A stretch of DNA of 64,000 bases from Owenia fusiformis (lineage: Eukaryota > Annelida > Polychaeta > Sabellida > Oweniidae): contig CAIIXF020000010.1 of the NCBI GenBank assembly GCA_903813345.2, positions 7,245,169-7,309,168 on the forward strand, given 5' to 3'. The notes beneath the pieces are model-generated. The model had not been told where the DNA came from and ran no database searches. It saw only the letters and a program-made list of their open reading frames with translations. The translations under genes and the position numbers were made by a program. Positions 39,795-64,000 of the stretch are shown one piece after another (positions within the stretch are counted from its first letter, which is position 1; every line of letters begins with the position of its first letter).

Positions 39795-39900
39795 ACACCA
39801 GTTTTTATGCCAGCATTAAATGGGATATCACTTTTTATGCCAGCATCAATTGGGACATAACTTTTTATGCTCAGCATAAAATGCTGGGCATAAAAAAGTG
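39795..39900. repeat. ~30-bp minisatellite ending in a hairpin (CTTTTTATGCCAGCAT)
   Basis: Three copies of TTTTTATGCCAGCATYAA(A)TGGGA, followed by GCTCAGCATAAAATGCTGGGCA which can fold back on the repeats. Confidence 0.65.
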
Positions 39901-40164
39901 ATATAAAATTTTTTTTAACCAACAAATCCGGGTTTTTGTTACAGTCCATTTTCATATAATCCGCTGTTACAGGTTCTACTGTACTTCAATTAGTAAATTC
40001 ATACTGTAATTAATCAGCAAATATTTAAGAAGACTATCTTTTTATAATTTGTTTTGTGACCCAGTTTTTATGGGATATGACATAGAAACAACAAAGCTAC
40101 CTCTAAAGTGTCCTGATGTGGCCACTGACCAAATAATGATGATTTCTTACATGGTAGATGGACA

Positions 40165-40365
40165 GGTAAAAATGGGTTAGATTATACAAGATAAAATTAC
40201 AGGGTTCAATTATGCAAGTAAAATTGGTTAGATATTGCGAGGGTAAAAGTAGGTAAGATTATGCAGAGTATAGATTATGCAGAGTTGGATTATACAGGGT
40301 AGAAATACAGGCTACAGTTATGTGAGTAATATTGATTGGATTGTGAGGGGGAAAATGGGTTATGA
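40165..40365. repeat. Degenerate short tandem repeat (GGTTAGATTATGCAAG type)
   Basis: Eight or more loose copies of GGTTAGATTAT(G/A)CA(A/G)AGTA, directly left of the dispersed repeat at 40374. Confidence 0.5.
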
Positions 40366-41513: not shown

Positions 41514-44500
41514 TCAACCAGCCTGATGGTTCATTTTCAATATCCACTCCACAGTTTCTAACAGTAAAGGCATGTTATAATGGCTGAAAAAACAATATCA
41601 AATTCATTTGTAACATTATTGATGTATTTCCTAAGTATTTTTCATTGTACATCAGTTAATAAAATTTCCTCTTATGAACTGAACAACTTAAGTATGGGTG
41701 CTGCTGCACATGGCTTAAGTCATTAACAAATCATGGCAGTAAAGCCACTTACATCAATGATTAATAGAAAACATCTTCATTCAACATATTTACTCAAACT
41801 TACCTTGCTATATTCCTAAATATTTTCAGTTTCTGTACAACATCTGGAAGGGATTGTGTGGTTGTGAAGTCACCTGCACATTTACAATACGTCGCCATAT
41901 TAGTATCTTTCACCTGAAATTAACACAACTGAAAGTGACCACAGAATAGAGTGAACAATGTTGGAAGCAGAATTTGAAAAACATGCCAATGATTTCCTTA
42001 CGCTCCTAGTTTTATTTTTCTGAAAGAGAACTGAGATGGCTGATCAAATATGGAAGTTATCATAGATTAGAATTAAAAATTGAAAAATACCATCCTGAAG
42101 TAATGTCACGTGGACTTTTTTGGAAAATAGGCTAAAAATATTGTATAATTGAGACAAAATTCCTGAAAGTTACTCCCAACATGTCTTTAGTGTTTGTTAT
42201 ACCTTTGTGAGAAAAGTATATAAAGTCACTGGTGTGGCTTAGACCCATTTTTGGCTTAAATAAATGGACTCAACTTATATCTAATTTTCAATATCATATC
42301 ACAGCCAAAATACAAGAACAAGCAGAATTTGATGTTTTGCTAAACTTTTCAGACTTAGTATTTCCTCCCCAAAATGATATTTATGGACTCCTCCCCACAC
42401 TCCAAGATCCAATAATCCACACTTCATGTTTTACAATATTGACAGAAACAATGCATACCCCATTGCATTTAATACACTTGAGATCCTGTAGCACATGAGC
42501 CATTGACTTCCTCTGTACAGCATCAATAAGATGTTGTTCGATTTCAGCAACGTCATACTCCGTTTTACATGTCTCATTTGTACAGTGCCATAAAGACCTG
42601 CAAAAAGTAAATGAAGAGAATATATTTCAATTCATGCCTATTCAACGAATTTCACTGATTCACATTTCAAGAATTAGGTTTTGTGGAATGTTAAATTCAA
42701 AGTCAGAAAAATATTGTTAAGAAAATACTTATGTATTTCTTTTCTTATTTGTCAAAACACCATATTTGGCATTTCAAGCGATTTAAGAGTATTTTTGACA
42801 ATTATGCAACATATCCATAAGAACTATGTTTTCTTGCAAGGCAAGTCCCTGAGATACCACAAATATCAATAATCACTCTATTACCTTTCCTATGAGGAGA
42901 AAAACACATTGTTTTACCATGTTTAAAATTCAAATGTTGTAATTGTGGTTAGATAATACAGACAGTCAACGAAATGGTTGTCTAAAATTACCTGGGGCTG
43001 TGAATTCGTACGATCCCCAAACCAATCCGGATAAATTTTATCCTTTGGGATAAATCTTGGATTAGTAATCCGATAAATATTTGGTGAATTCGTACGATCC
43101 AAGGATTATGAGGGGGAATCCCCAAGATTTATCCAATTTGCATTGGAATTCAGATAAAATTTATCCAAAAAGTAATCCACCACTATAGGAGGATCGAGAA
43201 TTATCCTGAGATTAATCCCAGGATTGTACGAATTTACCGATTTTTGGATTAATTCTTGGATTAATCCCACAATGCATCATTACCATGACGAAATTTATCC
43301 GGATCGGATCGTGGAGCGTACGAATTCACCGCCCCTGGTCTACAAATTATTTCCATATTCATAAAATTACCATTTAATCTGAAAATGCATCTTTAAATGT
43401 TTCTCATTATTTGTACTCACTGAGCATCGTCAGACAAATGTGGATCTCGACACAGATCAACGTCCCGCGTGCTATTACAATTCTTACATATAACTTCAGG
43501 GAGGATGTACGATAAACATGGATCTTGGAAATCAGCATCCCTCGAGAAATCTCCAACACCAATCAGCTTCAAGAGATCTCTTCGCATCTTATTCACCTGG
43601 TTTGTAATATTTGAGTCCAAGGACAGAACCTAATAAACACAAGGGATGGAAAATCAATAGCCTGTCAAAATTCTTAAATTCCCTCACTAAGATATATCAT
43701 TTACAATTTGGCATTCAGTCAATTGAGGCGCTGAACAAGGCCACGATCAAATCTTTGAGGGATGAAAAACTGCAAGTTTGGTGGTTTATTTGCTATGTAC
43801 AGACGGTAAGATGATTTGACCACTCTTTCAAAGGGTTAGAAATGCCTGTATGAGAAGTCTTCTTTAAGCCTCATAATGAACACTAGAAAACTATATCTAA
43901 TAATAAAGAATGCTAGATATAAGATGAGTTCTAGGTTGAAATTGGTATTTAAGAAATATGATATTTCAATATGATTTTTCTTCAGATATGTCTTTTATCA
44001 CATAATTCATAATTAAATTATTCTCTGAAAAAGATTTCCTATTCTCACAAATGATAACTTACCTTGCACACATATTTGATAAATTCAAGGGCTGGATTGT
44101 TTAGTGGCAAATACGATCCAGGGAGCTTCGGGAATTCCGCAGACAAATCTCCACGCCCACTTCCTGAGAGTTTCTTCTGGATTTTCTGGGTTATACTGAA
44201 AATGTTACATTTTTGTAAGATCAATTTCAAAATTGGGATGGTCAGATTAAAAAATATGAAGAATTTTGAATGACAAAGTTATACATCTGCTTTTTAAATT
44301 TCCTTAACATTCAAGTACCCTGAAAATGTTTGCACTGTGACATGAAAAACAAAAAGATCCTAGATTTATCCCATTTGGTCCATCTTAAATTCTTAAATGT
44401 GTCCTAGATGTACATGGTTATTGTTTTCACATTTATACCTTAATATTATACTTATTTAACTTAACCATCTTAAATTCTTAAATGTGTCCTAGATGTACAT

Positions 44501-47500
44501 GGTTATTGATTTCACATTTATACCTTAATATTGTACTTATTTAACTTAACATTTGGTCCATCTTAAATTCTTAAATGTGTCTTAGATGTACATGTATTTT
44601 GTACTTACGCGAACATCTGCATACACATGTCTTTCTCAATAAGCTGTTGTGATTTCTCTAGCAAGCCTGGGGTTACAGTGGCATCTATGCTTGGCTAGAT
44701 GGAATATAAATATTTTATTTATTTATTCTTTAAGTACATTCACACCCCTTGGGGTCAAGTACATGTACAAAAATTATAACAATTATAAAGGAAGGAAAAA
44801 AAGACATTTACATGTAAAAAACTACATAACTATTAATATTACTATTAATGATGATGATGCATTGGTGCATATAAACATGTACATTTCAACACTGTCAATT
44901 TTTGAAATATGAAATACCTGTTTACAACGCAGTTTGATTATTTTCTTTGAAATGTATTTTGTATGAAAATGAAGACTCAAATTACAAGTGATTATGATGA
45001 CAAAATATAATTTATAATAGGACTATCATTAAAATGACAAAATATGTGCTATTAAGTTACTGTAAATGGTGCAAAAATTAACAGTTGTTACAGACACCAA
45101 TTTATTACTTCTTGGTATTACTATTAAGAATCGGTCATTACTGAAAAGATGTCACTACCTGTGTCTGACTACCTCCCCGCCTCCTGACTGGCGTGCTGCC
45201 TGGAGTGTGGCTCTGAATCTCGTTCTCTAAGTGGTTAAAGATGGCGTGGATGTAGCCCGCAATTATCATCTAAAATTAAAAGTATAAAACAATTTTCACA
45301 CCAATTATGTTAATATGAAAATTTATAAAACTAAGAAGAGTTCGAATTAATAAAAAAGACATGATGAACAATATAGTAATATGACATATTTTTAAGAAAC
45401 ATTTATAAACCAAAGATTGACAATATTATGACAATGTAGGTGTTATTATCATTATATGGGCTAAAATCAATCTTTTTGTACCACAGTTTGTTTGGTAACA
45501 TGGTTTTGAGACTAAAATTCCAAAATAAATCTTTTAGATTTCATCAAGTGTACAGCATGTACAGGGTGGTCCAAAAAAATGGGACACTCATATTTCAAAA
45601 ATAAATATTGATTTTCTTGATGAAAACATGTCATATTATATACCAATGGATAGACATTATAATAAATTTGAACTTTTAATATACCAAATAAAAGATGAGT
45701 AAATTCCCTATCCATTGGTATATAAAATGACATGTTTTCATCTAGAAAATCAATATTTATTTTTGAAATGAGTGTCCCATTTTTTCTCGGACCACCCTGT
45801 ACTTATCACATCACACATTTCTACTTATCTGACTTACATTAAAGTGTGTCTGACAGGCAGCTGCCTCGGGTAAAAACTTCACCAGGTTCCAGTTCATCTC
45901 TATCTCAGGCTGAAAAGGTATAAAACACAATGACAATCTCATGATTTCAATTCATGCACAAATTAAAAAAATCATGATTTTCTTGCCTCTTGATGCTTCA
46001 TAAAATGACCACTATAACAGTTGTCTATGTCTATAATCTGCAAAAGGCTAATAAGCCCATATAAAGCAGATATATAAAATTGAAAGGAACCTTCCTGGTT
46101 GGCCCCTGTAACCCCCTAGGAAGTCCCTTTATGTTGAAATACACTGGGGTGACTGTCAGGCTACCGCGTTGACAGCTCCCCTCTTTACCAGTAGTGCAGG
46201 CCTATTGCTTTGCACTGGGGACCTTTTACATTAAAACATAGATCTATATTAAAAACACACCTTCCTTCAAAGTTTTCTTCTGGTTCATTGAGATAAAGAT
46301 AAGACTGAAAAGTGCATATTACACGTTCAATCCAGAATCTAAACGTGGCTTTTAAAGATGCATCAGATCTTTCAATGCACTTTCATGCATATTTGGAAAA
46401 TAACTCAATAGGGAAGGTGTTAGACCAAACAATTGTCTCGAAAGCCAGAAAAGGTATGTTTTTGACCAATTTTCTGTTGTCAACCAATTTTCAAATGACA
46501 ATATGGCTTTGGTGTGATGAAGGATGGCAAACACTGTTAATTATTTAGAAATTCAACCTATTTGGTGAATGGAGATATAGCTGTGATAATTAATAAATCT
46601 TAAAAAGTAAATCTGGCCCTCACATCATCTTCACTGTCAGACTGGTCCAAAGTTTCTTCTCTTTCAGGGGTGTTAGGTTGTTCTTCATCACTATCCTCAC
46701 CTCCCTCTCTGCCGGTCAATCCATTTCGTGGTGTTGGAATCTTGGCTCTTACACCTCCAAAGTTAGCCTGGACACACAAAGAATTATAACATATAGCCAT
46801 TTAGTGAATTTCTGTTTTGTGACTTTGGGCCTAAACATATTTTGACCTGGTATGATTTTAAGTTTGTTATTTGATTCTGAAATACATCAGATATTTTACT
46901 TCAGGTTAAACAAGAACCTACCGGGTCAAGCCAGAGAAGCAGCTGCCAGTTGCTGCTATAAGTAATATCTATCATATGATAAAGCTCTTTCGCCCGTATG
47001 GTGTTTGTGATATACTCAACATAAGCCAAAGCATCAATGAGTTGACGTTTCTTGGTGCAGATGATCATGCGGCTGAAGTTAGCATGGACAATCGTAGAGC
47101 CAAGTCTTTTGAACTCAGCAACCAACTAAAAATAAAGTAGAAATTTCAATACAATGGGAGGTATTTTAAATAGAAATTTGCATAATTCTCTCTTAACAAG
47201 ATGTCCACTTATGGAAGAAGCAAACTTCTTGATTTTAGTCAGACCTGGCCTTAACGAAGAGATTACAAGGCCTTAACATGCAAAATGTCACCACCTGCCA
47301 TTTGTTACAGACAGCAAACACCAACTGCCAAAGACCATCCACAAAGATAATAACAATATATCCCACTTCTGGTGGTGACATAAAATAGTACTTAAAACAC
47401 ACTTTTCCTGCCTGGTGGTAAGATTCATTGAGGAAATAAATATACTCTTCACATGCATAATTTTTTTAAATAGCTTAAATTCCAGCAACTCTATAAACTA

Positions 47501-50500
47501 TACATATTTGGATTTCAGTGATCCTGCAAATAATATCAACTGTACAAGATATGTTTTTGAATTCATCATAGTTTTACCTGCATGAATAATTTCTTCATCA
47601 TGTTGTGAAGAGTTCTCCTAAGGGCTGGGTCATACAACAGAGAGGCTGGGGACGTCAACCATCTAAATAACAACATCTCATAGTTGGTTCCTTTGGCATG
47701 ATATTGTACATATTATAGAGGTTGCAAAACTAATTTTCCCATTCATTTCTTCATGCCTTCATGATTCTGGTATATTTGTTAGTAAGGCAGAGCAGGGGAA
47801 AAGATTCAATTTTTTCAAGATGTTTGAATCAATTATGTTTTATGACAGTATTTTGAATCAATTATGTAATTCTGGGTTTTTCTCTTTTTTGACAATAGAT
47901 TTAGAATCTTAAGCTTTTTAGTGGGTATATTATCATGACTTAACAATATAATGTACATGTAAACTATTTACCTGTAAAAATGAATGACTTGATGGTCTGC
48001 AAATACATTCTGGTAATTTGTGATATCCCTGATCCAACCATGAACCATGCTCTTCATTATCCTGGAACATAAAATATTAAAAGATTCTTCATCCTAGCAA
48101 GTAAATCAATTCTCTTAATATTCTAATCCTTACAATAGTCATGAGATGGAGAAAGGTTAAAAAAATCTGAAATTGGAAACATACGAAGAATATAGTAACT
48201 AAATGTGTTTGCATAAATGGTGGTCTCATAAGGACTGGTCTTGCCTACTAATCACAGAACATGAACACAGGTAATTACCAGACCTCAACATACCATGAGA
48301 ATTTTAGGGACCACATTGAGGTGATCATTTGGCCGAGTGCGCTAATACATATAGCCCTGTGCCTTAGCTATGATACTCTGTCAAAACTCTTCATGAGGTA
48401 TTGTGAGTAGCCGTAGATAAGTGAGCCAAAATATATGAGCAACATTATTACATTATATTGACTGAATACCTGAAAGTGACAGCACAGAGTGCAGTTTCAT
48501 CATAACTTGTCAACATTGTTGCTGCCCCTTGTCCTTGGAGCATGTCTTGTATGTACGTCTGCGGGTTGTCAAAGCTAACTGCACTTGCTCCCTCTATATC
48601 ATTCACATGGCCTGACTGTAACGCAAAGGAACATCAATTTAACACATATATTACTACTTTACTATTGCTAGGCTAAATGATAAATGATTCTGAGATAAAG
48701 TGATTGAAAAATGTAAAATGTAAGATCTCTTTGGACTTTTTCATTGATTTATCATCATTTTGGCTGATAGTGTTTTGTAAAGGAGGGCTACATCGGAAAC
48801 TAGAGTTAATTTTCATTTATAGAGGTAAGGGTGCTACAGTCCTTTGGCGTGCATTAATACCTCAGTCACATTTGTTCTATGGCAACCATATGGCGACCAT
48901 AGCTTCCCAAAATCGTGAGAAATATGCAGCATAAATATAGGGATAAGCAGTACAATGTAGATATTCAAATGTGACTGAGGATTAATATTATGGTGTGTTT
49001 TCTTGCCTCAAGCAGAGTGTTCACTGCTATACTGGCCAGATCTAACTTAACACATATAGTAGAATAGCACCCTTCATTGTTGATTTCAAGTGATGTATTC
49101 TCTTACCTCAAGCAGAGTGTTCACTGCTATACTGGCCAGATCTAACTCAACAAATATAGTAGAATAGCACCCTTTATTGTTGATTTCAAGTGATGTATTC
49201 TCTTACCTCAAGCAGAGTGTTCACTGCTATACTGGCCAGATCTAACTCAACACATATAGTAGAATAGCATCCTTCATTGTTGATTTCAAGTGATGTATTC
49301 TCTTACCTCAAGCAGAGTGTTCACTGCTATACTGGCCAGATCTAACTCAACACATATAGTAGAATAGCATCCTTCATTGTTGATTTCAAGTGATGTATTC
49401 TCTTACCTCAAGCAGAGTGTTCACTGCTATACTGGCCAGATCTAACTCAACACATATAGTAGAATAGCATCCTTCATTGTTGATTTCAAGTGATGTATTC
49501 TCTTACCTCAAGCAGAGTGTTCACTGCTATACTGGCCAGATCTAACTCAACACATATAGTAGAATAGCATCCTTCATTGTTGATTTCAAGTGATGTATTC
49601 TCTTACCTCAAGCAGAGTGTTCACTGCTATACTGGCCAGATCTAACTCAACACATATAGTAGAATAGCACCCTTCATTGTTGATTTCAAGTGATGTATTC
49701 TCTTACCTCAAGCAGAGTGTTCACTGCTATACTGGCCAGATCTAACTCAACACATATAGTAGAATAGCACCCTTCATTGTTGATTTCAAGTGATGTGTTG
49801 TCTTACCTCAAGCAGAGTGTTCACTGCTATACTGGCCAGATCTTACTCAACACATATAGTAGAATAGCATCCTTCATTGTTGATTTCAAGTGATGTATTC
49901 TCTTACCTCAAGCAGAGTGTTCACTGCTATACTGGCCAGATCTAACTCAACACATATAGTAGAATAGCATCCTTCATTGTTGATTTCAAGTGATGTATTC
50001 TCTTACCTCAAGCAGAGTGTTCACTGCTATACTGGCCAGATCTAACTCAACACATATAGTAGAATAGCACCCTTCATTGTTGATTTCAAGTGATGTGTTC
50101 TCTTACCTCAAGCAGAGTGTTCACTGCTATACTGGCCAGATCTAACTCAACAAATATAGTAGAATAGCATCCTTCATTGTTGATTTCAAGTGATGTATTC
50201 TCTTACCTCAAGCAGAGTGTTCACTGCTATACTGGCCAGATCTAACTCAACACATATAGTAGAATAGCATCCTTCATTGTTGATTTCAAGTGATGTATTC
50301 TCTTACCTCAAGCAGAGTGTTCACTGCTATACTGGCCAGATCTAACTCAACACATATAGTAGAATAGCACCCTTTATTGTTGATTTCAAGTGATGTGTTT
50401 TCTTACCTCAAGCAGAGTGTTCACTGCTATACTGGCCAGATCTAACTCAACACATATAGTAGAATAGCATCCTTCATTGTTGATTTCAAGTGATGTGTTC

Positions 50501-53500
50501 TCTTACCTCAAGCAGAGTGTTCACTGCTATACTGGCCAGATCTAACTCAACACATATAGTAGAATAGCATCCTTCATTGTTGATTTCAAGTGATGTGTTC
50601 TCTTACCTCAAGCAGAGTGTTCACTGCTATACTGGCCAGATCTAACTTAACAAATATAGTAGAATAGCACCCTTCATTGTTGATTTCAAGTGATGTATTC
50701 TCTTACCTCAAGCAGAGTGTTCACTGCTATACTGGCCAGATCTAACTCAACAAATATAGTAGAATAGCATCCTTCATTGTTGATTTCAAGTGATGTATTC
50801 TCTTACCTCAAGCAGAGTGTTCACTGCTATACTGGCCAGATCTAACTCAACAAATATAGTAGAATAGCACCCTTCATTGTTGATTTCAAGTGATGTATTC
50901 TCTTACCTCAAGCAGAGTGTTCACTGCTATACTGGCCAGATCTAACTCAACACATATAGTAGAATAGCATCCTTCATTGTTGATTTCAAGTGATGTATTC
51001 TCTTACCTCAAGCAGAGTGTTCACTGCTATACTGGCCAGATCTAACTCAACACATATAGTAGAATAGCACCCTTCATTGTTGATTTCAAGTGATGTATTC
51101 TCTTACCTCAAGCAGAGTGTTCACTGCTATACTGGCCAGATCTAACTCAACAAATATAGTAGAATAGCATCCTTCATTGTTGATTTCAAGTGATGTATTC
51201 TCTTACCTCAAGCAGAGTGTTCACTGCTATACTGGCCAGATCTAACTCAACACATATAGTAGAATAGCACCCTTCATTGTTGATTTCAAGTGATGTATTC
51301 TCTTACCTCAAGCAGAGTGTTCACTTCTATACTGGCCAGATCTAACTCAACAAATATAGTAGAATAGCATCCTTCATTGCTGATTTCAAGTGATGTATTC
51401 TCTTACCTCAAGCAGAGTGTTCACTGCTATACTGGCCAGATCTAACTCAACACATATAGTAGAATAGCACCCTTCATTGTTGATTTCAAGTGATGTATTC
51501 TCTTACCTCAAGCAGAGTGTTCACTGCTATACTGGCCAGATCTAACTCAACACATATAGTAGAATAGCATCCTTCATTGTTGATTTCAAGTGATGTATTC
51601 TCTTACCTCAAGCAGAGTGTTCACTGCTATACTGGCCAGATCTAACTCAACACATATAGTAGAATAGCACCCTTCATTGTTGATTTCAAGTGATGTATTC
51701 TCTTACCTCAAGCAGAGTGTTCACTGCTATACTGGCCAGATCTAACTCAACACATATAGTAGAATAGCATCCTTCATTGTTGATTTCAAGTGATGTGTTC
51801 TCTTACCTCAAGCAGAGTGTTCACTGCTATACTGGCCAGATCTAACTCAACAAATATAGTAGAATAGCATCCTTCATTGTTGATTTCAAGTGATGTGTTC
51901 TCTTACCTCAAGCAGAGTGTTCACTGCTATACTGGCCAGATCTAACTCAACACATATAGTAGAATAGCACCCTTCATTGTTGATTTCAAGTGATGTATTC
52001 TCTTACCTCAAGCAGAGTGTTCACTGCTATACTGGCCAGATCTAACTCAACACATATAGTAGAATAGCACCCTTCATTGTTGATTTCAAGTGATGTATTC
52101 TCTTACCTCAAGCAGAGTGTTCACTTCTATACTGGCCAGATCTAACTCAACACATATAGTAGAATAGCATCCTTCATTGTTGATTTCAAGTGATGTATTC
52201 TCTTACCTCAAGCAGAGTGTTCACTTCTATACTGGCCAGATCTAACTCAACAAATATAGTAGAATAGCATCCTTCATTGTTGATTTCAAGTGATGTATTC
52301 TCTTACCTCAAGCAGAGTGTTCACTGCTATACTGGCCAGATCTAACTCAACAAATATAGTAGAATAGCATCCTTCATTGTTGATTTCAAGTGATGTATTC
52401 TCTTACCTCAAGCAGAGTGTTCACTTCTATACTGGCCAGATCTAACTCAACAAATATAGTAGAATAGCATCCTTCATTGTTGATTTCAAGTGATGTATTC
52501 TCTTACCTCAAGCAGAGTGTTCACTGCTATACTGGCCAGATCTAACTCAACACATATAGTAGAATAGCACCCTTCATTGTTGATTTCAAGTGATGTATTC
52601 TCTTACCTCAAGCAGAGTGTTCACTGCTATACTGGCCAGATCTAACTCAACACATATAGTAGAATAGCATCCTTCATTGTTGATTTCAAGTGATGTATTC
52701 TCTTACCTCAAGCAGAGTGTTCACTGCTATACTGGCCAGATCTAACTCAACACATATAGTAGAATAGCACCCTTCATTGTTGATTTCAAGTGATGTATTC
52801 TCTTACCTCAAGCAGAGTGTTCACTGCTATACTGGCCAGATCTAACTCAACACATATAGTAGAATAGCACCCTTCATTGTTGATTTCAAGTGATGTATTC
52901 TCTTACCTCAAGCAGAGTGTTCACTGCTATACTGGCCAGATCTAACTCAACAAATATAGTAGAATAGCATCCTTCATTCTTGAATTCAAGTGATGTGTTT
53001 TCTTACCTCAAGCAGAGTGTTCACTGCTATACTGGCCAGATCTAACTCAACAAATATAGTAGAATAGCATCCTTCATTGTTGATTTCAAGTGATGTATTC
53101 TCTTACCTCAAGCAGAGTGTTCACTGCTATACTGGCCAGATCTAACTCAACAAATATAGTAGAATAGCATCCTTCATTGTTGATTTCAAGTGATGTATTC
53201 TCTTACCTCAAGCAGAGTGTTCACTGCTATACTGGCCAGATCTAACTCAACAAATATAGTAGAATAGCATCCTTCATTGTTGATTTCAAGTGATGTATTC
53301 TCTTACCTCAAGCAGAGTGTTCACTGCTATACTGGCCAGATCTAACTCAACACATATAGTAGAATAGCACCCTTCATTGTTGATTTCAAGTGATGTATTC
53401 TCTTACCTCAAGCAGAGTGTTCACTTCTATACTGGCCAGATCTAACTCAACACATATAGTAGAATAGCACCCTTCATTGTTGATTTCAAGTGATGTGTTC

Positions 53501-56500
53501 TCTTACCTCAAGCAGAGTGTTCACTGCTATACTGGCCAGATCTAACTCAACAAATATAGTAGAATAGCATCCTTCATTGTTGATTTCAAGTGATGTATTC
53601 TCTTACCTCAAGCAGAGTGTTCACTGCTATACTGGCCAGATCTAACTCAACACATATAGTAGAATAGCACCCTTCATTGTTGATTTCAAGTGATGTATTC
53701 TCTTACCTCAAGCAGAGTGTTCACTGCTATACTGGCCAGATCTAACTCAACACATATAGTAGAATAGCACCCTTCATTGTTGATTTCAAGTGATGTATTC
53801 TCTTACCTCAAGCAGAGTGTTCACTGCTATACTGGCCAGATCTAACTCAACACATATAGTAGAATAGCACCCTTCATTGTTGATTTCAAGTGATGTGTTC
53901 TCTTACCTCAAGCAGAGTGTTCACTGCTATACTGGCCAGATCTAACTCAACACATATAGTAGAATAGCACCCTTCATTGTTGATTTCAAGTGATGTATTC
54001 TCTTACCTCAAGCAGAGTGTTCACTGCTATACTGGCCAGATCTAACTCAACACATATAGTAGAATAGCACCCTTCATTGTTGATTTCAAGTGATGTATTC
54101 TCTTACCTCAAGCAGAGTGTTCACTGCTATACTGGCCAGATCTAACTCAACACATATAGTAGAATAGCACCCTTCATTGTTGATTTCAAGTGATGTATTC
54201 TCTTACCTCAAGCAGAGTGTTCACTGCTATACTGGCCAGATCTAACTCAACACATATAGTAGAATAGCACCCGTCATTGTTGATTTCAAGTGATGTATTC
54301 TCTTACCTCAAGCAGAGTGTTCACTGCTATACTGGCCAGATCTAACTCAACACATATAGTAGAATAGCATCCTTCATTGTTGATTTCAAGTGATGTATTC
54401 TCTTACCTCAAGCAGAGTGTTCACTGCTATACTGGCCAGATCTAACTCAACAAATATAGTAGAATAGCACCCTTCATTGTTGATTTCAAGTGATGTATTC
54501 TCTTACCTCAAGCAGAGTGTTCACTGCTATACTGGCCAGATCTAACTCAACAAATATAGTAGAATAGCATCCTTCATTGTTGATTTCAAGTGATGTATTC
54601 TCTTACCTCAAGCAGAGTGTTCACTGCTATACTGGCCAGATCTAACTCAACACATATAGTAGAATAGCATCCTTCATTGTTGATTTCAAGTGATGTGTTC
54701 TCTTACCTCAAGCAGAGTGTTCACTGCTATACTGGCCAGATCTAACTCAACACATATAGTAGAATAGCATCCTTCATTGTTGATTTCAAGTGATGTGTTC
54801 TCTTACCTCAAGCAGAGTGTTCACTGCTATACTGGCCAGATCTAACTCAACACATATAGTAGAATAGCATCCTTCATTGTTGATTTCAAGTGATGTATTC
54901 TCTTACCTCAAGCAGAGTGTTCACTTCTATACTGGCCAGATCTAACTCAACACATATAGTAGAATAGCACCCTTCATTGTTGATTTCAAGTGATGTATTC
55001 TCTTACCTCAAGCAGAGTGTTCACTGCTATACTGGCCAGATCTAACTCAACACATATAGTAGAATAGCACCCTTCATTGTTGATTTCAAGTGATGTATTC
55101 TCTTACCTCAAGCAGAGTGTTCACTGCTATACTGGCCAGATCTAACTCAACACATATAGTAGAATAGCACCCTTCATTGTTGATTTTAAGTGATGTATTC
55201 TCTTACCTCAAGCAGAGTGTTCACTTCTATACTGGCCAGATCTAACTCAACAAATATAGTAGAATAGCATCCTTCATTGTTGATTTCAAGTGATGTATTC
55301 TCTTACCTCAAGCAGAGTGTTCACTGCTATACTGGCCAGATCTAACTCAACACATATAGTAGAATAGCATCCTTCATTGTTGATTTCAAGTGATGTATTC
55401 TCTTACCTCAAGCAGAGTGTTCACTGCTATACTGGCCAGATCTAACTCAACACATATAGTAGAATAGCATCCTTCATTGTTGATTTCAAGTGATGTATTC
55501 TCTTACCTCAAGCAGAGTGTTCACTGCTATACTGGCCAGATCTAACTCAACACATATAGTAGAATAGCACCCTTCATTGTTGATTTCAAGTGATGTATTC
55601 TCTTACCTCAAGCAGAGTGTTCACTGCTATACTGGCCAGATCTAACTCAACAAATATAGTAGAATAGCACCCTTCATTGTTGATTTCAAGTGATGTATTC
55701 TCTTACCTCAAGCAGAGTGTTCACTGCTATACTGGCCAGATCTAACTCAACACATATAGTAGAATAGCACCCTTCATTGTTGATTTCAAGTGATGTATTC
55801 TCTTACCCCAAGCAGAGTGTTCACTTCTATACTGGCCAGATCTAACTCAACACATATAGTAGAATAGCATCCTTCATTGTTGATTTCAAGTGATGTATTC
55901 TCTTACCTCAAGCAGAGTGTTCACTTCTATACTGGCCAGATCTAACTCAACAAATATAGTAGAATAGCATCCTTCATTGTTGATTTCAAGTGATGTATTC
56001 TCTTACCTCAAGCAGAGTGTTCACTTCTATACTGGCCAGATCTAACTCAACACATATAGTAGAATAGCACCCTTCATTGTTGATTTCAAGTGATGTATTC
56101 TCTTACCTCAAGCAGAGTGTTCACTGCTATACTGGCCAGATCTAACTCAACAAATATAGTAGAATAGCATCCTTCATTGTTGATTTCAAGTGATGTATTC
56201 TCTTACCTCAAGCAGAGTGTTCACTTCTATACTGGCCAGATCTAAATCAACAAATATAGTAGAATAGCATCCTTCATTGTTGATTTCAAGTGATGTATTC
56301 TCTTACCTCAAGCAGAGTGTTCACTGCTATACTGGCCAGATCTAACTCAACACATATAGTAGAATAGCACCCTTCATTGTTGATTTCAAGTGATGTATTC
56401 TCTTACCTCAAGCAGAGTGTTCACTGCTATACTGGCCAGATCTAACTCAACACATATAGTAGAATAGCACCCTTCATTGTTGATTTCAAGTGATGTATTC

Positions 56501-59500
56501 TCTTACCTCAAGCAGAGTGTTCACTGCTATACTGGCCAGATCTAACTCAACACATATAGTAGAATAGCATCCTTCATTGTTGATTTCAAGTGATGTGTTC
56601 TCTTACCTCAAGCAGAGTGTTCACTGCTATACTGGCCAGATCTAACTCAACAAATATAGTAGAATAGCACCCTTCATTGTTGATTTCAAGTGATGTATTC
56701 TCTTACCTCAAGCAGAGTGTTCACTGCTATACTGGCCAGATCTAACTCAACACATATAGTAGAATAGCACCCTTCATTGTTGATTTCAAGTGATGTATTC
56801 TCTTACCTCAAGCAGAGTGTTCACTGCTATACTGGCCAGATCTAACTCAACACATATAGTAGAATAGCACCCTTCATTGTTGATTTCAAGTGATGTATTC
56901 TCTTACCTCAAGCAGAGTGTTCACTGCTATACTGGCCAGATCTAACTCAACACATATAGTAGAATAGCATCCTTCATTGTTGATTTCAAGTGATGTATTC
57001 TCTTACCTCAAGCAGAGTGTTCACTTCTATACTGGCCAGATCTAACTCAACACATATAGTAGAATAGCACCCTTCATTGTTGATTTCAAGTGATGTATTC
57101 TCTTACCTCAAGCAGAGTGTTCACTGCTATACTGGCCAGATCTAACTCAACACATATAGTAGAATAGCACCCTTCATTGTTGATTTCAAGTGATGTATTC
57201 TCTTACCTCAAGCAGAGTGTTCACTGCTATACTGGCCAGATCTAACTCAACACATATAGTAGAATAGCATCCTTCATTGTTGATTTCAAGTGATGTATTC
57301 TCTTACCTCAAGCAGAGTGTTCACTGCTATACTGGCCAGATCTAACTCAACAAATATAGTAGAATAGCATCCTTCATTGTTGATTTCAAGTGATGTATTC
57401 TCTTACCTCAAGCAGAGTGTTCACTGCTATACTGGCCAGATCTAACTCAACAAATATAGTAGAATAGCACCCTTCATTGTTGATTTCAAGTGATGTATTC
57501 TCTTACCTCAAGCAGAGTGTTCACTGCTATACTGGCCAGATCTAACTCAACAAATATAGTAGAATAGCATCCTTCATTGTTGATTTCAAGTGATGTATTC
57601 TCTTACCTCAAGCAGAGTGTTCACTGCTATACTGGCCAGATCTAACTCAACAAATATAGTAGAATAGCATCCTTCATTGTTGATTTCAAGTGATGTATTC
57701 TCTTACCTCAAGCAGAGTGTTCACTGCTATACTGGCCAGATCTAACTCAACAAATATAGTAGAATAGCACCCTTCATTGTTGATTTCAAGTGATGTATTC
57801 TCTTACCTCAAGCAGAGTGTTCACTGCTATACTGGCCAGATCTAACTCAACACATATAGTAGAATAGCATCCTTCATTGTTGATTTCAAGTGATGTATTC
57901 TCTTACCTCAAGCAGAGTGTTCACTGCTATACTGGCCAGATCTAACTCAACAAATATAGTAGAATAGCATCCTTCATTGTTGATTTCAAGTGATGTATTC
58001 TCTTACCTCAAGCAGAGTGTTCACTGCTATACTGGCCAGATCTAACTCAACACATATAGTAGAATAGCACCCTTCATTCTTGAATTCAAGTGATGTGTTT
58101 TCTTACCTCAAGCAGAGTGTTCACTGCTATACTGGCCAGATCTAACTCAACACATATAGTAGAATAGCACCCTTCATTGTTGATTTCAAGTGATGTGTTC
58201 TCCTCAAATTCAGTCATCAATCTATTCAGAACATAAAACAGTAATTGTAATAAGTATTCATTTGAGACTTTTTTCTACAATACACCCTTGGAGTGTTATT
58301 TTGTTAGCATGTATTTTAATTTTGTTGCTTGTGTTTGAAATATTTTCTTAAACTATAATTAGACAGACTGGTTTAGTTAATACAAGGCAATGATCAACTG
58401 AACTCCTTATATTCAAAGTTTTATATTTGAATGATTTGTGGAATGATGTAAACTTTCTGTTAGACAATAGCTTTTTTGAACAATCAATGCAATGAAAAAT
58501 TCTCACCGATTATCATCTGCTTCCTTTCCACCCAGATCGGGTCTCTCAGAGGGGGAGCACCAGAGGACATGGTTGTGTTTAGCGAGATGGCGGGCAAAGA
58601 AAAGATCGCAACCAAAGATCATTGTATCCTTGGGAAGGTTACCAACCGGTATGTGAAAGTATCTGCATTGCTCCATATAAGCCTAGAAGGATTAAGGTTT
58701 AAAAATATAGAAGGATTTCAGACAGTTAGGATTTTAATTAAGAACTAGTTGTTTGAAAGTGTGTGCAACATTTTACATGCTGTGCAAAATTTTTGAATAA
58801 TATAATGTTAATTTTAATCAGCACAAGAGTATTCAAACACCCCAATGATTGCCTAAACTAAGCTTGGTAACCTTGACTTCATTTTCGATATTGCCTGTTA
58901 AAAATGCCTGTTTAATTTTGAAATCAATTTTTTTCTTCATATTCGGAAATTTATAATATTTGAAGGATATTTTAGTGCTCAAATAGGGAAGTTGGTATTT
59001 CCATACTTTTATAAGGGAGTGTAAGTTGTAGGTATAACTTACTTGTAATATCATGTCTACATTGAGGTAATGTTGTATCATTCTCTTGGCACCAACTCTC
59101 TGCCAATCAAGGGACTTGAACATATTGGGACTGTCAGACACGTGTACAGGCACCATGGGGAAGTCACTGAGTCCTGGCATATCCTTTACCATATGTTGGA
59201 AATCTAGAACGAAAGTACCTCAATAAAATTACAGGGTACATGTTTATTTTAGTGAGACTATTTTCTTGATGTTGAACTCAAATCAGAAGACATTTTATTG
59301 TTTAATTATGACAGTAATTGTAATTTGTCCCTTCAATTGACCCTTCAATTCAAAATGGCAATCATCTTTCAGTACACATTGCTCTTGACCAGTGGAAAAT
59401 AGGCCCAAAAGCCTGGGTATGATGGTATTGCATGTCCTCCTCTGCTTACCTTTTACTGACTGGACAGCTATGAATGTTGGTCCTTTCTTTTCATCTTTGT

Positions 59501-62500
59501 AGAGTGAGAGGAGACGTTGGATAGAACGGAACACTTGGCGCACATCTTTCTCAACTTTCACCTCAAATGTGTGGCCCCCTGGTGGTAGAAGTTCTTCATC
59601 CTGGACCTTCTCAATTCTGATAAACAGATTTTTGAATATATTTCAAATTAAATGGAAATTAAAAATAAATACAAGAATTATACATGGAACATGGAGGTCT
59701 TTTCATTTAATTTAAATCTCAATGAAAATGTTAAGTTTTACTCCATACTACAAAGTACATGAAGTAGTACACAAAAATCTAACTTTATAATGTTAACTTT
59801 GAAAATCTCTGCTTTCTTGAGTGCCATAATCTTTCAGTTGGTATTAAACTATTTTGTCTTATTGTAGAAGGTTATCTTACTTGAGATTATGCTCAGCATT
59901 GTACAGTGCATTCATGTTTGGCATCTGATTGGTTCGTACGGTATCAACTACAAATACAGATGCTTTCTTTGACATCGGGAAGAACAACCCAAACATCATC
60001 TTTGCTCCACTAAAACAAAAAATAAAATAAAGTCATATTTATATTCTAAAATGATGAGTTTTCCTCTGTAGAGAATAAAAATCGAAAAAAACTTATCTAC
60101 CAAATCAATTTACAATATTTATAAACTTTTATTAATAAGTTTTGCACAGGCTATATATTTTGTTTGTATCTTTACAATTCAAGTTTTTTCACTGTGTATT
60201 GTTCAAATCAATGATGAGAAAAATGTGGCATGAGGTGACCCAGGTCAATTTGATTCTCAGAGTTTTTTATAAAACTTTGGCAATTAATTGCTTGTATATT
60301 ACTGTTGAATAAAGGAATAAAATGTATAAAAAGAGTCAGATTGAGAAATTAGTCTATGGAAACATGTTATAAATCCCATCACTATGAAACACCCACCTCT
60401 GATAATGGTAAAGATAGATATGTTTCATGCTCCCAGGCTCAAGGTACGGATACTGTGCCAGTGTCCGGAAATCCAAATGATCCAGATCAAAAGTATCCGT
60501 GTCAATGCTGCCATAGTGTTGCGAGATGGACTTGTTGACAGTACACACACAGCCTATTCTGACCATAGCCCTGAACATTAAGGGGACTTGTGTCTCATAA
60601 ACACCTTCAATATCAGGGGATGACAGGTCAGCACTGATTTCACTGTAAAGTAAAATAACAATATGAATTAGAAAAACAGCAAAAATATGACTTTCTATTC
60701 ACTCATGTGCAATTTAATACACTTCGGCTTCATTTATTTCTACATTTAATACTTTTTGGTATTACAATGATCATCAGCATTTTGACTATCAATGACATTT
60801 TTTCATTGTGTAATGACCCTTGGGCACGCTCGTCGGGGAGCTGTAGTGTACCGAGCCAGATACTAGACTCGAAAGAGAATGTGCTAAATTCAATGCCCGT
60901 ACGGGAATCCAACCCAGGACCTTCCGCTGTCAGAGTCAGACACTCTACCCCTGAGCCATAAAGGCTAGCCACTACAGCTGAGACTGTAGTAGCGACTTGC
61001 TATCGAAGGTCATTACAATTGCAATACTTCGGAAATTTCAAAGGAGATGATGCATGAATCCTTGTGTTGAATACATACAAGTTCATCATAATAATATTTC
61101 CATATGCATGTTCTGTCCTTTTCTGTTCTATTTCTTGACTTCATTTTTTATATTTCAAAATTGAGATGAATCAATTTGGTACTTTTTTACTTACTTTATA
61201 TTTTCTAGGTATATATCTTCTGGAACAGAGTACTGGTAGAGGTACTGGACCATATGGGACCTTGGTAGAGTTTTATGTACTTTTCTCCACACTGGAACAC
61301 AGGACAAGAAGCAAAGATTACAATGGAAGTTATACAGATTATACAGTTCAAATATTGTATTGCCCTTCTAGGCCATCCACCCTCCTTTTCATAATTTCCC
61401 AATTGTTTTTGTACATGTACTCGTACATGACAATTCTGTCTGAACAGATTATTCATCTACAGATTTGAAAAAGGCCTATATGGGAAAGGAAATTAAAATG
61501 AAATATTTCACTCACTTTGCCCTGCACCTTCTTTTTCAGTTTTTTGATTAACATAGAATATGCGTGGAATGGTGAGTTTTATAGCGTGCAGGTCATTTCC
61601 TATGAGTGCCCATAGTTTGTACATTCCAGGGTGCCCTGTCTCTGCAATCTGAAATGTTAAACAAGTGCCCAACAATATCATTATCAGTAATAAATTCAAA
61701 TAACCTAATGCCTTTGCATAACTTCATAGTACTAATTTCTTTTTATATTTCATACCAAATTCGATTAATTTATTTCCAATTGAGTATTTGATTCATCTAG
61801 AAGTAATTTGCAAGCATGATTTTGTAATATGTCATTGGAAAGGTTGTAATAATATACACCTATATTTAAAACATGAATAATGTTAAAGTAAATATACCTG
61901 CACAATCTGCCAAGGCATATCAAGGACACTTCGAGCCTTCTTACGCAGAAAACCGCTGAGGCCACCTCCGCTACGGATCACACCTCCACCACCTGCGTTA
62001 ACATAAAGTACAATAAAATGTCCATTAAATAGGCAAACATCTCTACAACAGTAGATTGAATTTGTTTTTGCATCATATAGCTAATATGACCAATGCTTAT
62101 TTTAAGCTAATGCAAACTTAGTTAATGTCTTAAACACCAGAGCATTTTTCATTTTCGCTTGATTCTGCCATATTTTATTTTAATATACAATGTTTAATGT
62201 TAGTTTTGGTAAAATCACTGAACATATAAAAAGTTACAAACATTTTAATACATGGTTTGAGTAAACAGAACAAAATTTATTGAGAAATCCTGTGACTGAT
62301 ATATCCATTGAAATCTAGCAAGTTATTTTGGCATCATAGGACTAATATGACCAATCATGACGTACTACCTTATTTGGCGAACAGCCTAATTTGTAACGTT
62401 TTCTTATGTTACAGCACAAGACTGTAAATGTTTCTTACCTGAGGGTTTCTCACCATTGTCTAATCTCCTACGTTTGGTTTTTTCTGCCCGTTGTTTAGCT

Positions 62501-63830
62501 TGTAATGCCCACTTCTTCTTGTGGTACGCAACCCATTCATCCCTTTCATCCTGAAATGAGAAACAATGAGACCTTGTTTTCATTTTAATTGATGCATCTG
62601 ATATTGATCTTTTTGTACAGTGTAGTTTATTGTACATGTGAAGTTGTAATTAAATATGTGTACTCGTGTTGTTTGAATTGTATAAAATCATTCAATCATA
62701 TGTGTACTTTCTGCAGAATCATTCACCTGGGTTTTGCCCATAGGTGGAGGGGGTCCAAGTATTTCTCTCCAAGACCTTGTCAAATCAGAATCTTTCCTTC
62801 CAAAATCCTTCTGGGATTCATCATCAAATGCGCTGACTTGTCGTTTACGCTTGTTGCTAATGGCAACCAGTTCCTTTGATTTGGCACTATTGGTGCCACC
62901 TATATCTTCAATATCCATGGCATTACTGCTGTTTTCCTCTTCATTGTATTGCTGTCCACTTGAGTCAGTCTGCAAAGTAAAATGCAAAGAAACATCTTTT
63001 GATGTTCAAAAGGACACAATGGATAGCAGACATTTGTATATTTAACAGAAATTGCGCTGTATTTTTACAACCCATGTTGATCAATATATTTTAAAATGTA
63101 GATAATAAGATCTTACCAAATTGATTCAGCTTATTGCCAAATAAAGTATAAAAACTATAAAACTAACATCATGGTGTAGCAAATTCCACCAAACAAAACT
63201 TAATTTGTCAGGCCAATTTGTCTAATCATTCATCATTTTGAACATTAAATGACAGAAATAAATATGACGCCATATCATTTGTTGCCCATTCAAGGAAAGG
63301 ATTCTTGTATTCCCTATTTGAGAAAATAAACTTCTCATATGTATTAAACATGAAAACAGTGACTCACCATATCTTTTGCTGCCGGTGCAAACATCTCATT
63401 GATGCGTTTCTGCTTGAAGACATCATTTTTCTCCAATAATTTCTTATGCAGCCAATCAGGATGCTTAATACGAGGCACTGGGTTGACAATCTGAATAAAT
63501 TATGTTAAGGTTATACTTAAAAGTTTTTAAATCAATTCTATCAATCAGACTCCAATCAGCCTCGACCTCATGACAAATTATAGTATTAAGACAAGATATT
63601 AGCAAACAAAATGTCACCACCTGCTATTTGTTACAGATCCCAAACACCATCCACAAAAACGTTGGAGACTATAACAATATGTCACCACTTGTGAAATAAT
63701 AGGATACATTTAATTGCCTAATACAATAAATGATTGAATGTGGACTTACCCCTTGCAGGGCAGCTGGAATTGTAATAATTTTCTGTACAGTCCCACCAAG
63801 TCTCTCAATGTAGTAGCCCCAGTCCAGAAT
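41514..63830 (-). CDS. POLE: DNA polymerase epsilon catalytic subunit, C-terminal half (partial)
   Basis: Leading-strand replicative polymerase. 26 exons, minus strand: 63830-63750, 63490-63368, 62969-62727, 62550-62439, 61992-61898, 61648-61516, 61291-61195, 60642-60397, 60009-59881, 59616-59450, 59203-59043, 58682-58507, 58221-58107, 48615-48470, 48061-47972, 47662-47578, 47125-46922, 46767-46624, 45909-45838, 45269-45159, 44694-44609, 44195-44063, 43629-43421, 42597-42459, 41913-41804, 41583-41514. Every junction is GT-AG and every phase fits; 1,158 residues, about half of the usual ~2,280. It opens with [17 protein letters not shown] at the end of the active polymerase module; then comes the inactive second exo-pol module ([49 protein letters not shown]). 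CysA (ICKNC ... CTNETC) and CysB (CIKCNG ... YCKCAG) zinc sites bind POLE2 and the CMG helicase contact. The intron after exon 13 is a 9-kb satellite. The N-terminal catalytic half lies beyond the window. Confidence 0.97.
42994..43335. mobile_element. TIR MITE with GGGGC...GAATTCGTACGATCC ends, in a POLE intron
   Basis: Ends GGGGCTGTGAATTCGTACG and the complement of CGTACGAATTCACCGCCCC. The interior repeats GGATTAATCC/GGATAAATTT words in both orientations. No ORF. Located between the CysA exons of POLE. Confidence 0.75.
44376..44601. repeat. ~95-bp tandem repeat beside a POLE splice donor
   Basis: Two and a half copies of CCATCTTAAATTCTTAAATG ... CTAGATGTACATGGTTATTG ... TTATACTTATTTAACTTAAC, ending 8 bp downstream of the donor of exon 44694-44609. 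Confidence 0.8.
45562..45799. mobile_element. Tc1/mariner-type palindromic MITE (238 bp), in a POLE intron
   Basis: Ends CAGGGTGGTCC...AAATGGGACACTCAT in inverted orientation, arms of about 95 bp (AAAATCAATATTTATTTTTG, AACATGTCAT), flanked by TA at 45560-45561 and 45800-45801. Confidence 0.85.
47278..47395. repeat. GTCACCACC-family dispersed repeat, in a POLE intron
   Basis: Left part CATGCAAAATGTCACCACCT matches the 6763 copy; right part ends GGTGGTGACATA, an inverted version of the left TGTCACCACC, so the element has short inverted ends. Confidence 0.65.
48853..48986. mobile_element. ~134-bp MITE abutting the satellite edge
   Basis: Inverted ends ATTAATACCTCAGTCACATTTG and CAAATGTGACTGAGGATTAAT. 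The terminus resembles the CTNGGTCACAT end of the Harbinger-like element at 30305. It stops 5 bp before the 100-bp satellite begins. Confidence 0.75.
48991..58202 (-). repeat. 100-bp exon-derived satellite, 92 tandem copies, inside POLE
   Basis: The word TCTAACTCAA (or one-base variants) recurs at 49041, 49141, 49241 and so on to 58141 without a single register shift: 92 units of exactly 100 bp. On the minus (POLE) strand each unit reads from GAA(C/T)ACATCACTTGAAATC through GTTGAGTTAGATCTGGCCAG to CTGCTTGAG|GTAAGA. That is the last ~93 bp of the POLE exon at 58107-58221 plus the first few intron bases, so the 5' splice site is copied in every unit. The unit at 58.1 kb is the functional exon itself. 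Copies differ at a handful of recurring sites: AGCAYCC, ACAMATA, CTKCTAT, TGTRTTC. The last unit (48991-49090) has a GC in place of the GT donor. No unit contains a polypyrimidine tract or acceptor. Confidence 0.95.
58107..58221 (-). CDS. POLE: POLE exon that seeded the satellite
   Basis: 115-bp exon, phase 1 to 0: [21 protein letters not shown] followed by [18 protein letters not shown], a close match to the conserved CYSTVCVELDL region of POLE's second polymerase module. The acceptor is TGTTCTGAATAG, with a weak pyrimidine tract; the donor is GAG|GTAAGA. The first 19 bp or so (LMTEF...) are unique. From about base 58202 downward the exon is identical to the satellite consensus. The next real exon begins at 48615 (SGHVNDIEG), so the intron is 9,491 bp. 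Confidence 0.93.
60810..61015 (-). mobile_element. tRNA-related SINE/TIR element in a POLE intron
   Basis: Ends GTAATGACCC and GGTCATTAC are inverted. On the minus strand it carries GATAGCAAGTCGCTACTACA, then a complete tRNA-like region and a tail with TTTAGCACATTCTCTTTC and TATCTGGCTCGG. The same parts occur in the 13764-13926 copy. Confidence 0.7.
60895..60966 (-). other. tRNA-like region (A and B boxes) within the SINE-like element
   Basis: Minus strand reads TTTATGGCTCAGGGGTAGAG (A box TGGCTCAGGGGTAGAGTG) and 30 bp later GGGTTGGATTCC (B box), with a D-arm/T-arm arrangement like a tRNA but with acceptor ends GCC...GTACGGGCA only partly paired. It is a tRNA-derived promoter of the repeat, not a host tRNA gene in my view. 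Confidence 0.6.
63606..63695. repeat. GTCACCACC-family dispersed repeat, in a POLE intron
   Basis: AAATGTCACCACCTGCTATTTG, CACCATCCACAAA, and ATAACAATATGTCACCACTT, as in the 47278 and 37796 copies. Confidence 0.65.
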
Positions 63831-64000
63831 CTGAAGTGAAAATCAATTAATGAAGGTGGATCGCCAATATATCGCCAACAGTACAATCAGCATAATTAAC
63901 AAACAATAAATTAATACTGAATCTTTGTTCTTAACAACCCAAAGAAGTCAAATAGTTAGTTTGATCTGCAACATTTTTGAAACTTTGTTCACTGAATTGA

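Follow-up and report, generated by a model that had tools for sequence, protein, structure and literature searches.

POLE, the gene for the catalytic subunit of DNA polymerase epsilon, lies on the minus strand of a 64,000-nt stretch from the annelid Owenia fusiformis (contig CAIIXF020000010.1, positions 7,245,169 to 7,309,168; the window from here on, with positions counted from its first letter), and one of its introns is filled by a 9.2-kb tandem array whose 100-bp unit joins the end of the preceding exon to the start of the intron. We consider it very probable that this array is a neutral minisatellite of the kind described in amphioxus as "mirages", founded at a microhomology, then expanded, and tolerated through choice of the proximal donor. 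Its history, its actual splicing and its neutrality we infer as follows. A 100-bp segment comprising the exon end and the intron start would have been tandemly duplicated at the 6-nt microhomology AACACA, and its copies would then have multiplied and been mixed by unequal exchange and gene conversion, yielding the 9.2-kb array and enlarging the intron from ~390 nt to 9.5 kb. The array would have no function of its own. Splicing would pair the real exon's acceptor, over the 115 nt of that exon, with the donor closest to it, and the 91 downstream donors, nearly all of them without an acceptor of their own, would go mostly unused. Three things are new in this case: the size of the array, its location in an essential gene, and a host probably outside the cephalochordates.

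The initial annotation of the window had assigned the gene to POLE, and the assignment held: joining the six exons around the array gave an open frame of 257 residues, and the product matched residues 1595-1851 of the human DNA polymerase epsilon catalytic subunit (PDB match, E 2e-107). According to this match and the tblastn exon matches, the 3' part of POLE occupies 41517..64000 (minus strand) and the gene extends past the window, its most upstream tblastn match (human residues 33-68) lying near G000:C10:7350261. The exon next to the array is 115 nt long (58107..58221, minus strand) and corresponds to human POLE residues about 1702-1741, as placed by tblastn, the joined frame and positions 184-220 of the DUF1744 hidden Markov model (HMM); this functional exon stands intact at one end of the array, and the frame is open through all six joined exons. 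The following exon (48470..48615, minus strand; exon calls and joined frame) begins at the acceptor TTACAG/TCAGG, the slash marking the cut here and below. Intron calls place the intron between them at 48616..58106 (minus strand), a length of 9491 nt, of which the 91 added copies make up 9100. The remainder of about 390 nt compares with a median of 360 nt for the 32 other callable POLE introns (285 nt for the intron upstream of exon 58107-58221), so that the array alone accounts for the intron's great length.

Tandem Repeats Finder (TRF) returned one array at 48994..58202 (minus strand), with a period of 100, 92.1 copies, 98% matches, 0% indels and a score of 17557; 20 shuffles of the array stretch gave three TRF arrays in total at the same minimum score of 50. 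The 100-bp register over 9.2 kb that had been noticed at the outset is unbroken, with 92 of 92 units exactly 100 bp long (copy number as assembled, in one assembly) and arranged head-to-tail. Each unit consists of the last 93 nt of exon 58107-58221 plus seven intron nt starting GTAAGA, as originally described, and spans the exon-intron boundary. The count of 92 also stands for units, with the correction that only 91 of these copies lie in the intron, the remaining one being the 3' part of the real exon itself (58107-58199). Likewise, the units do lie in sense orientation within POLE, and their transcription, asserted along with it, would follow from that orientation.

When one unit was searched against the 498-Mb assembly, all 92 matches fell inside the POLE array and no dispersed copies were seen; the search skips very common words, which makes the confinement of the unit to one locus strong, not absolute. 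A search with the DUF1744 family gave 65 matches, all of them in POLE on the same contig and 60 of them array units. The word "satellite", used in the initial annotation, therefore overstates what was found, namely 92 matches at one locus and no arrays at further loci, and the array is better called a single-locus minisatellite. The same results bear on the idea that the unit derives from a dispersed satellite or transposon and came to the POLE exon by chance, in favour of which we found nothing. Every match lies in the POLE array, and the unit follows the exon colinearly, its encoded POLE residues aligning to human POLE; within the limits of the genome search this idea is refuted, and we assign it a negligible probability.

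That the assembly inflated a much shorter repeat, or merged several haplotypes, is in our judgement unlikely. The variants in the array are almost randomly mixed and could be consensus errors, and there is a precedent in an amphioxus globin mirage that appears aberrantly assembled in the draft genome (PMC3087553). Set against this, the window contains no N and both array ends continue into other POLE sequence, interior variants, including eight singletons, mark places inside the array, and a similar, shorter array is present in the same gene.

The junctions of the array hold a possible trace of its origin. On the sense strand, the first junction is GTAAGAAAACACATCACTTG, which reads GTAAGAA-AACACA-TCACTT, the intron and the exon meeting at a common AACACA; the exon carries GAGAACACATCACTTG and the single-copy intron past the last unit carries CAAGAAAACACACCATAAT, with the 6 nt AACACA common at the join. 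The two putative partners of the founding microhomology are accordingly found in the exon at 58194..58199 and in the original intron at 48994..48999 (both minus strand), an arrangement that fits microhomology-mediated tandem duplication with subsequent expansion. Divergence is greatest in the most distal unit (48994), which differs from the others at a mean of 4.9 positions compared to 1.7 for a typical unit; the one unit closest to it, of the 91 remaining, is that of the exon itself, 9 kb off and two differences away. Judging by these distances, the distal unit and the exon's own unit look ancestral and the interior units derived.

Variation among the 92 units is limited to 16 variable positions, with 26 unit types and eight variants that occur once. 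Likeness is barely greater between neighbouring units than between distant ones (z of -1.9 at lag 1, no clear spatial correlation), the four common variants are weakly correlated (absolute r up to 0.31) with all four allele combinations present at five of six site pairs, and no higher-order repeat structure was seen, as no mixed block of 4 to 12 units recurs in the array. In our interpretation, short tracts have often been converted or exchanged inside a young array. The array is clearly homogenised inside, and of its two ends only the distal one has clearly stayed out of the mixing.

The splice sites of the array were scored with donor and acceptor weight matrices made from 32 of POLE's own introns. 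The donor dinucleotide is GT in 91 units and GC in one; 90 of the 92 donors read GAG/GTAAGA, one reads GGG/GTAAGA and the most distal (49006) reads GAG/GCAAGA, this last copy (49001..49009, minus strand) being followed by the single-copy intron that presumably once followed the exon. At 11.0 bits, the array donor exceeds 28 of the 32 real POLE donors. Translation in the joined frame left the frame open at one donor of the 92, the first and exon-proximal 5' splice site (58101..58109, minus strand, GAG/GTAAGA), and led to an early stop (VRKHIT-stop) in 91 of 91 cases for donors 2-92. Because every other donor gives an early stop, the POLE protein requires the exon-proximal one.

Acceptors gave the opposite picture to donors. 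The intronic part of the array has 816 AGs, and 815 of them fall short of every one of the 32 real acceptors (range 4.1 to 14.9 bits). The initial annotation had described the unit as excluding any acceptor, which is right in that the common unit has no good one and wrong for a single mutated unit (56194), whose AG at 56241 falls within the real range. With one such AG out of 816, and cassette or mutually exclusive exons calling for an acceptor as well as a donor in each copy, we rejected the interpretation of the units as exons of that kind. Splicing of a recursive or dual-specific kind, which would excise the repeats step by step at the AG/GT unit junctions, is also highly unlikely. GAG/GTAAGA does recur at one fixed position in 90 of the 92 units, and human UBC offers a known example of AGGT sites with dual specificity inside tandem repeats (PMC10809524); as an acceptor, however, the site scored -1.24 bits in the one unit examined, against a lowest real value of 4.1 among the 32, its cut is preceded by GAG and a poor pyrimidine tract, and the whole-array scan brought up no AG above 4.1 other than 56241, so that we do not regard the site as a credible acceptor. 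The dual-specific sites of human UBC and VCX3A resemble the POLE array in carrying AG/GT once per tandem unit, but the UBC repeats are coding and their site acts as donor and acceptor, whereas the POLE repeats are intronic and have a poor acceptor score (PMC10809524).

We propose that the array is tolerated because the exon keeps its acceptor, which would be paired across the exon with the nearest donor. When two identical 5' splice sites compete in human minigenes, preference across the exon goes to the proximal one, and human data indicate that proximity is favoured across the exon where exon definition applies and across the intron where intron definition does (PMC9225289). The constructs of Reed and Maniatis and the exon-centric proximity minigenes are similar to POLE in that identical donors compete in cis, with the difference that the test constructs contained two donors, whereas in POLE, a natural case, 91 donors are GT and one is GC (PMC9225289).

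Several points weigh against this reading. The matrix introns were called with a generic splice score, which makes the comparison with POLE's own sites somewhat circular. The AG at 56241, created by a base change private to unit 56194, scores 9.3 bits, like ordinary POLE acceptors, and this unit may provide one 35-nt pseudo-exon (56207..56241, minus strand; found in the whole-array acceptor scan), with TTGATTTAG as its 9.3-bit acceptor followed by the unit's donor. The cross-exon rule is itself a bias, with ~60% upstream choice among equal-strength human events and a downstream preference under intron definition (PMC9225289); POLE introns are short (median 360 nt, the upstream one 285 nt), and such an architecture would be compatible with cross-intron pairing. 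Use of the proximal donor would follow from the need for an open frame. As to the history of the array, the end unit on the exon side is not unusually divergent (mean of 3.0, with several interior units higher), and the near-complete mixing of variants could stem in part from assembly or polishing. Finally, 92 copies over 9.2 kb is far above the three and six repeats published for two haplotypes of the amphioxus globin BflGb6.

A functional role for the array appears quite unlikely to us. In such a role, the decoy donors would compete with the real one, some transcripts would be mis-spliced and destroyed, and the copy number would tune the level of POLE. This agrees with the GT in 91 of 92 donors, almost every one of which matches good POLE donors in strength, and with the early stop that follows every downstream choice (91 of 91), by which even rare use would cut output in proportion. 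Yet an array that is young and homogenised, with 16 variable sites in all, should retain its donors in any case, similar arrays are found at unrelated exons and in unrelated genes, and published mirages reportedly leave splicing undisturbed (PMC3087553; PMC3902484). The bolder proposal of a copy-number rheostat, in which ~90 decoy donors divert a copy-number-dependent share of transcripts into early stops and array length sets the POLE dose, which would feed back on the array through replication fidelity and repeat stability, we hold to be very unlikely; if it were true, array length should vary between individuals and perhaps between cells. The array is most likely neutral.

The initial annotation knew of no earlier description of such an arrangement, but boundary-spanning tandem repeats have been published in amphioxus under the name of mirages. 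These are tandem repeats over exon-intron boundaries of both kinds, with splicing reportedly undisturbed (PMC3087553; PMC3902484): the Adh3 mirages, as cited, have units of 10-72 bp and show somatic instability, the Adh3 data and the reverse transcription PCR of the globin authors suggest regular splicing (PMC3087553), and the lancelet gene PGBD5 has tandem repeats at splice sites, with TnC cited as well (PMC3902484). Like the mirages of Adh3, the globins BflGb6 and BflGb9, TnC and PGBD5, the POLE array has a tandem unit that covers the boundary and an authentic exon that is kept, and it shares the anatomical features of the class, which occurs on the donor side and on the acceptor side, has units from tens of bp up to about 160 bp and shows concerted evolution within a cluster (PMC3087553; PMC3902484). 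It differs in residing in a replicative polymerase gene, in a host that is probably no cephalochordate, and in its copy number (three copies for one repeat of the PGBD5 mirage against 92 in POLE; PMC3902484). A tandem duplication across an intron-exon boundary has also been reported in PMC4974935; in that case a new intron arose, whereas in POLE an old one was enlarged and no new one is predicted, save for the possible 35-nt pseudo-exon. A literature search for papers that combine POLE and DNA polymerase epsilon with intron, tandem repeat, expansion and splice found none, and the available part of PMC2206037 contains nothing on boundary repeats.

Similar arrays were also found elsewhere in the genome. 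Boundary-spanning copies occurred at 6 of 94 exons, comprising 2 of 41 in POLE, 2 of 13 among matches to PF00136 (family-B polymerase) and 2 of 40 in myosin; this sample is non-random, POLE having been picked because of the finding, and without POLE the count is 4 of 53. In POLE, 28 exons were compared to the gene by blastn and the rest of the 41 chained exon matches were assessed via TRF and tblastn. For the 13 PF00136 matches (loci L014-L017), the criterion was an overlap with a TRF row whose period is at least 40, so that short-period cases may be missed, and the PF00063 search scored 65 of 210 candidates and gave at least 92 matches, from which 40 loci were hand-picked and fetched, mostly the stronger ones.

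The second POLE array consists of ten acceptor copies at exon 81463 (extended 82281-81463, in a numbering that covers the window and adjacent sequence; G000:C10:7326579-7327486; L010 7480-8387), and was also detected by TRF with a 183-bp period. Its copies are spaced 91 or 92 nt apart, with one spacing of 86; the nine decoy acceptors score 3.8-6.3, compared to 5.5 for the real one, and all nine lead to a stop. POLA1 has two copies of an exon end with its donor at a 120-bp spacing (L014 5380-5619), and REV3L has a ~22-bp unit with acceptor and exon start in six copies, including the real one (L015 5319-5451). A myosin gene with myosin-XV as its best PDB match carries a 32-bp unit containing the acceptor and exon start (L061 1-615) in 19 copies by TRF, 15 of which fit a strict pattern, and another myosin exon has an old two-copy form with 77.5% likeness (L043 487-600).

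Three candidates were left out of this count: a degenerate partial exon copy in POLE (extended about 84788-84720), in which an acceptor inside the unit could not be shown; the borderline intron repeats at the POLE exonuclease-I (exo-I) exon, which hold almost no exon sequence; and one 19-bp self-hit in myosin (L052). The exo-I repeat begins exactly at the donor of that exon and repeats its GTAAAAATGG (L011 1476-1650, extended 85407-85581).

Further observations concern the surroundings of the array and the genome at large. GC skew is steady across the POLE array, at -0.15 to -0.165 on the plus strand (window 50001-58000), which makes its sense RNA richer in G than in C, and this excess could favour R-loops; 300 nt of the sense array folded no better than shuffles (z 0.07), with no sign of structured RNA. 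Contigs C1-C12 measure 32 to 62 Mb, and G+C is near 0.35. Three above-cut-off matches to PF16915, the erythrocruorin linker family, sit inside 15 kb of C6; this family is not known outside annelids, which makes an annelid host probable. A second very long POLE intron of 10165 nt (G000:C10:7313932-7324096, extended 68764-78928) contains a 17-bp minisatellite of 24.6 copies (L009 5003-5420), and TRF found no large array of the boundary kind in it. Minisatellites of 55-57 bp, with 31.7 copies (L018 2900-4699) and 13.8 copies (L023 1398-2163), were met in two of six arbitrary 10-kb pieces (L018-L023), and the genome seems rich in such arrays.

In addition, an inverted copy of the POLE exo-I exon with flanking intron lies at window 39969-40230 (plus strand), ~45 kb from the real exon and 92% identical to C10:7330684-7330945(-). 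Its edge (window 39900-39990) is a dispersed repeat, 39 of 42 matches being elsewhere, on many contigs and both strands, and covering about the first 70 to 90 query bases; it is perhaps the end of a mobile element. On C9, a myosin-head exon (HMM positions about 18-84) is present in at least 12 tandem copies among the matches listed (G000:C9:37986009-37994334), perhaps as a bank of mutually exclusive exons.

To summarize, the POLE array amounts to a natural experiment on competing splice sites, set in an essential gene for which one answer alone gives an open frame. Two classic rules clash in it, as cross-intron proximity points to the donor ~9 kb downstream and cross-exon proximity to the first donor, and the second POLE array puts the same pairing question to ten acceptors. 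The host, an annelid, is probably not a lancelet, and mirages would thus not be confined to cephalochordates; boundary arrays at 6 of 94 exons in a non-random sample likewise suggest that splice-boundary minisatellites are not a cephalochordate peculiarity. The POLE array draws attention to the possible frequency of such arrays, and the part that splice-boundary minisatellites play in the growth and gain of introns may have been overlooked.

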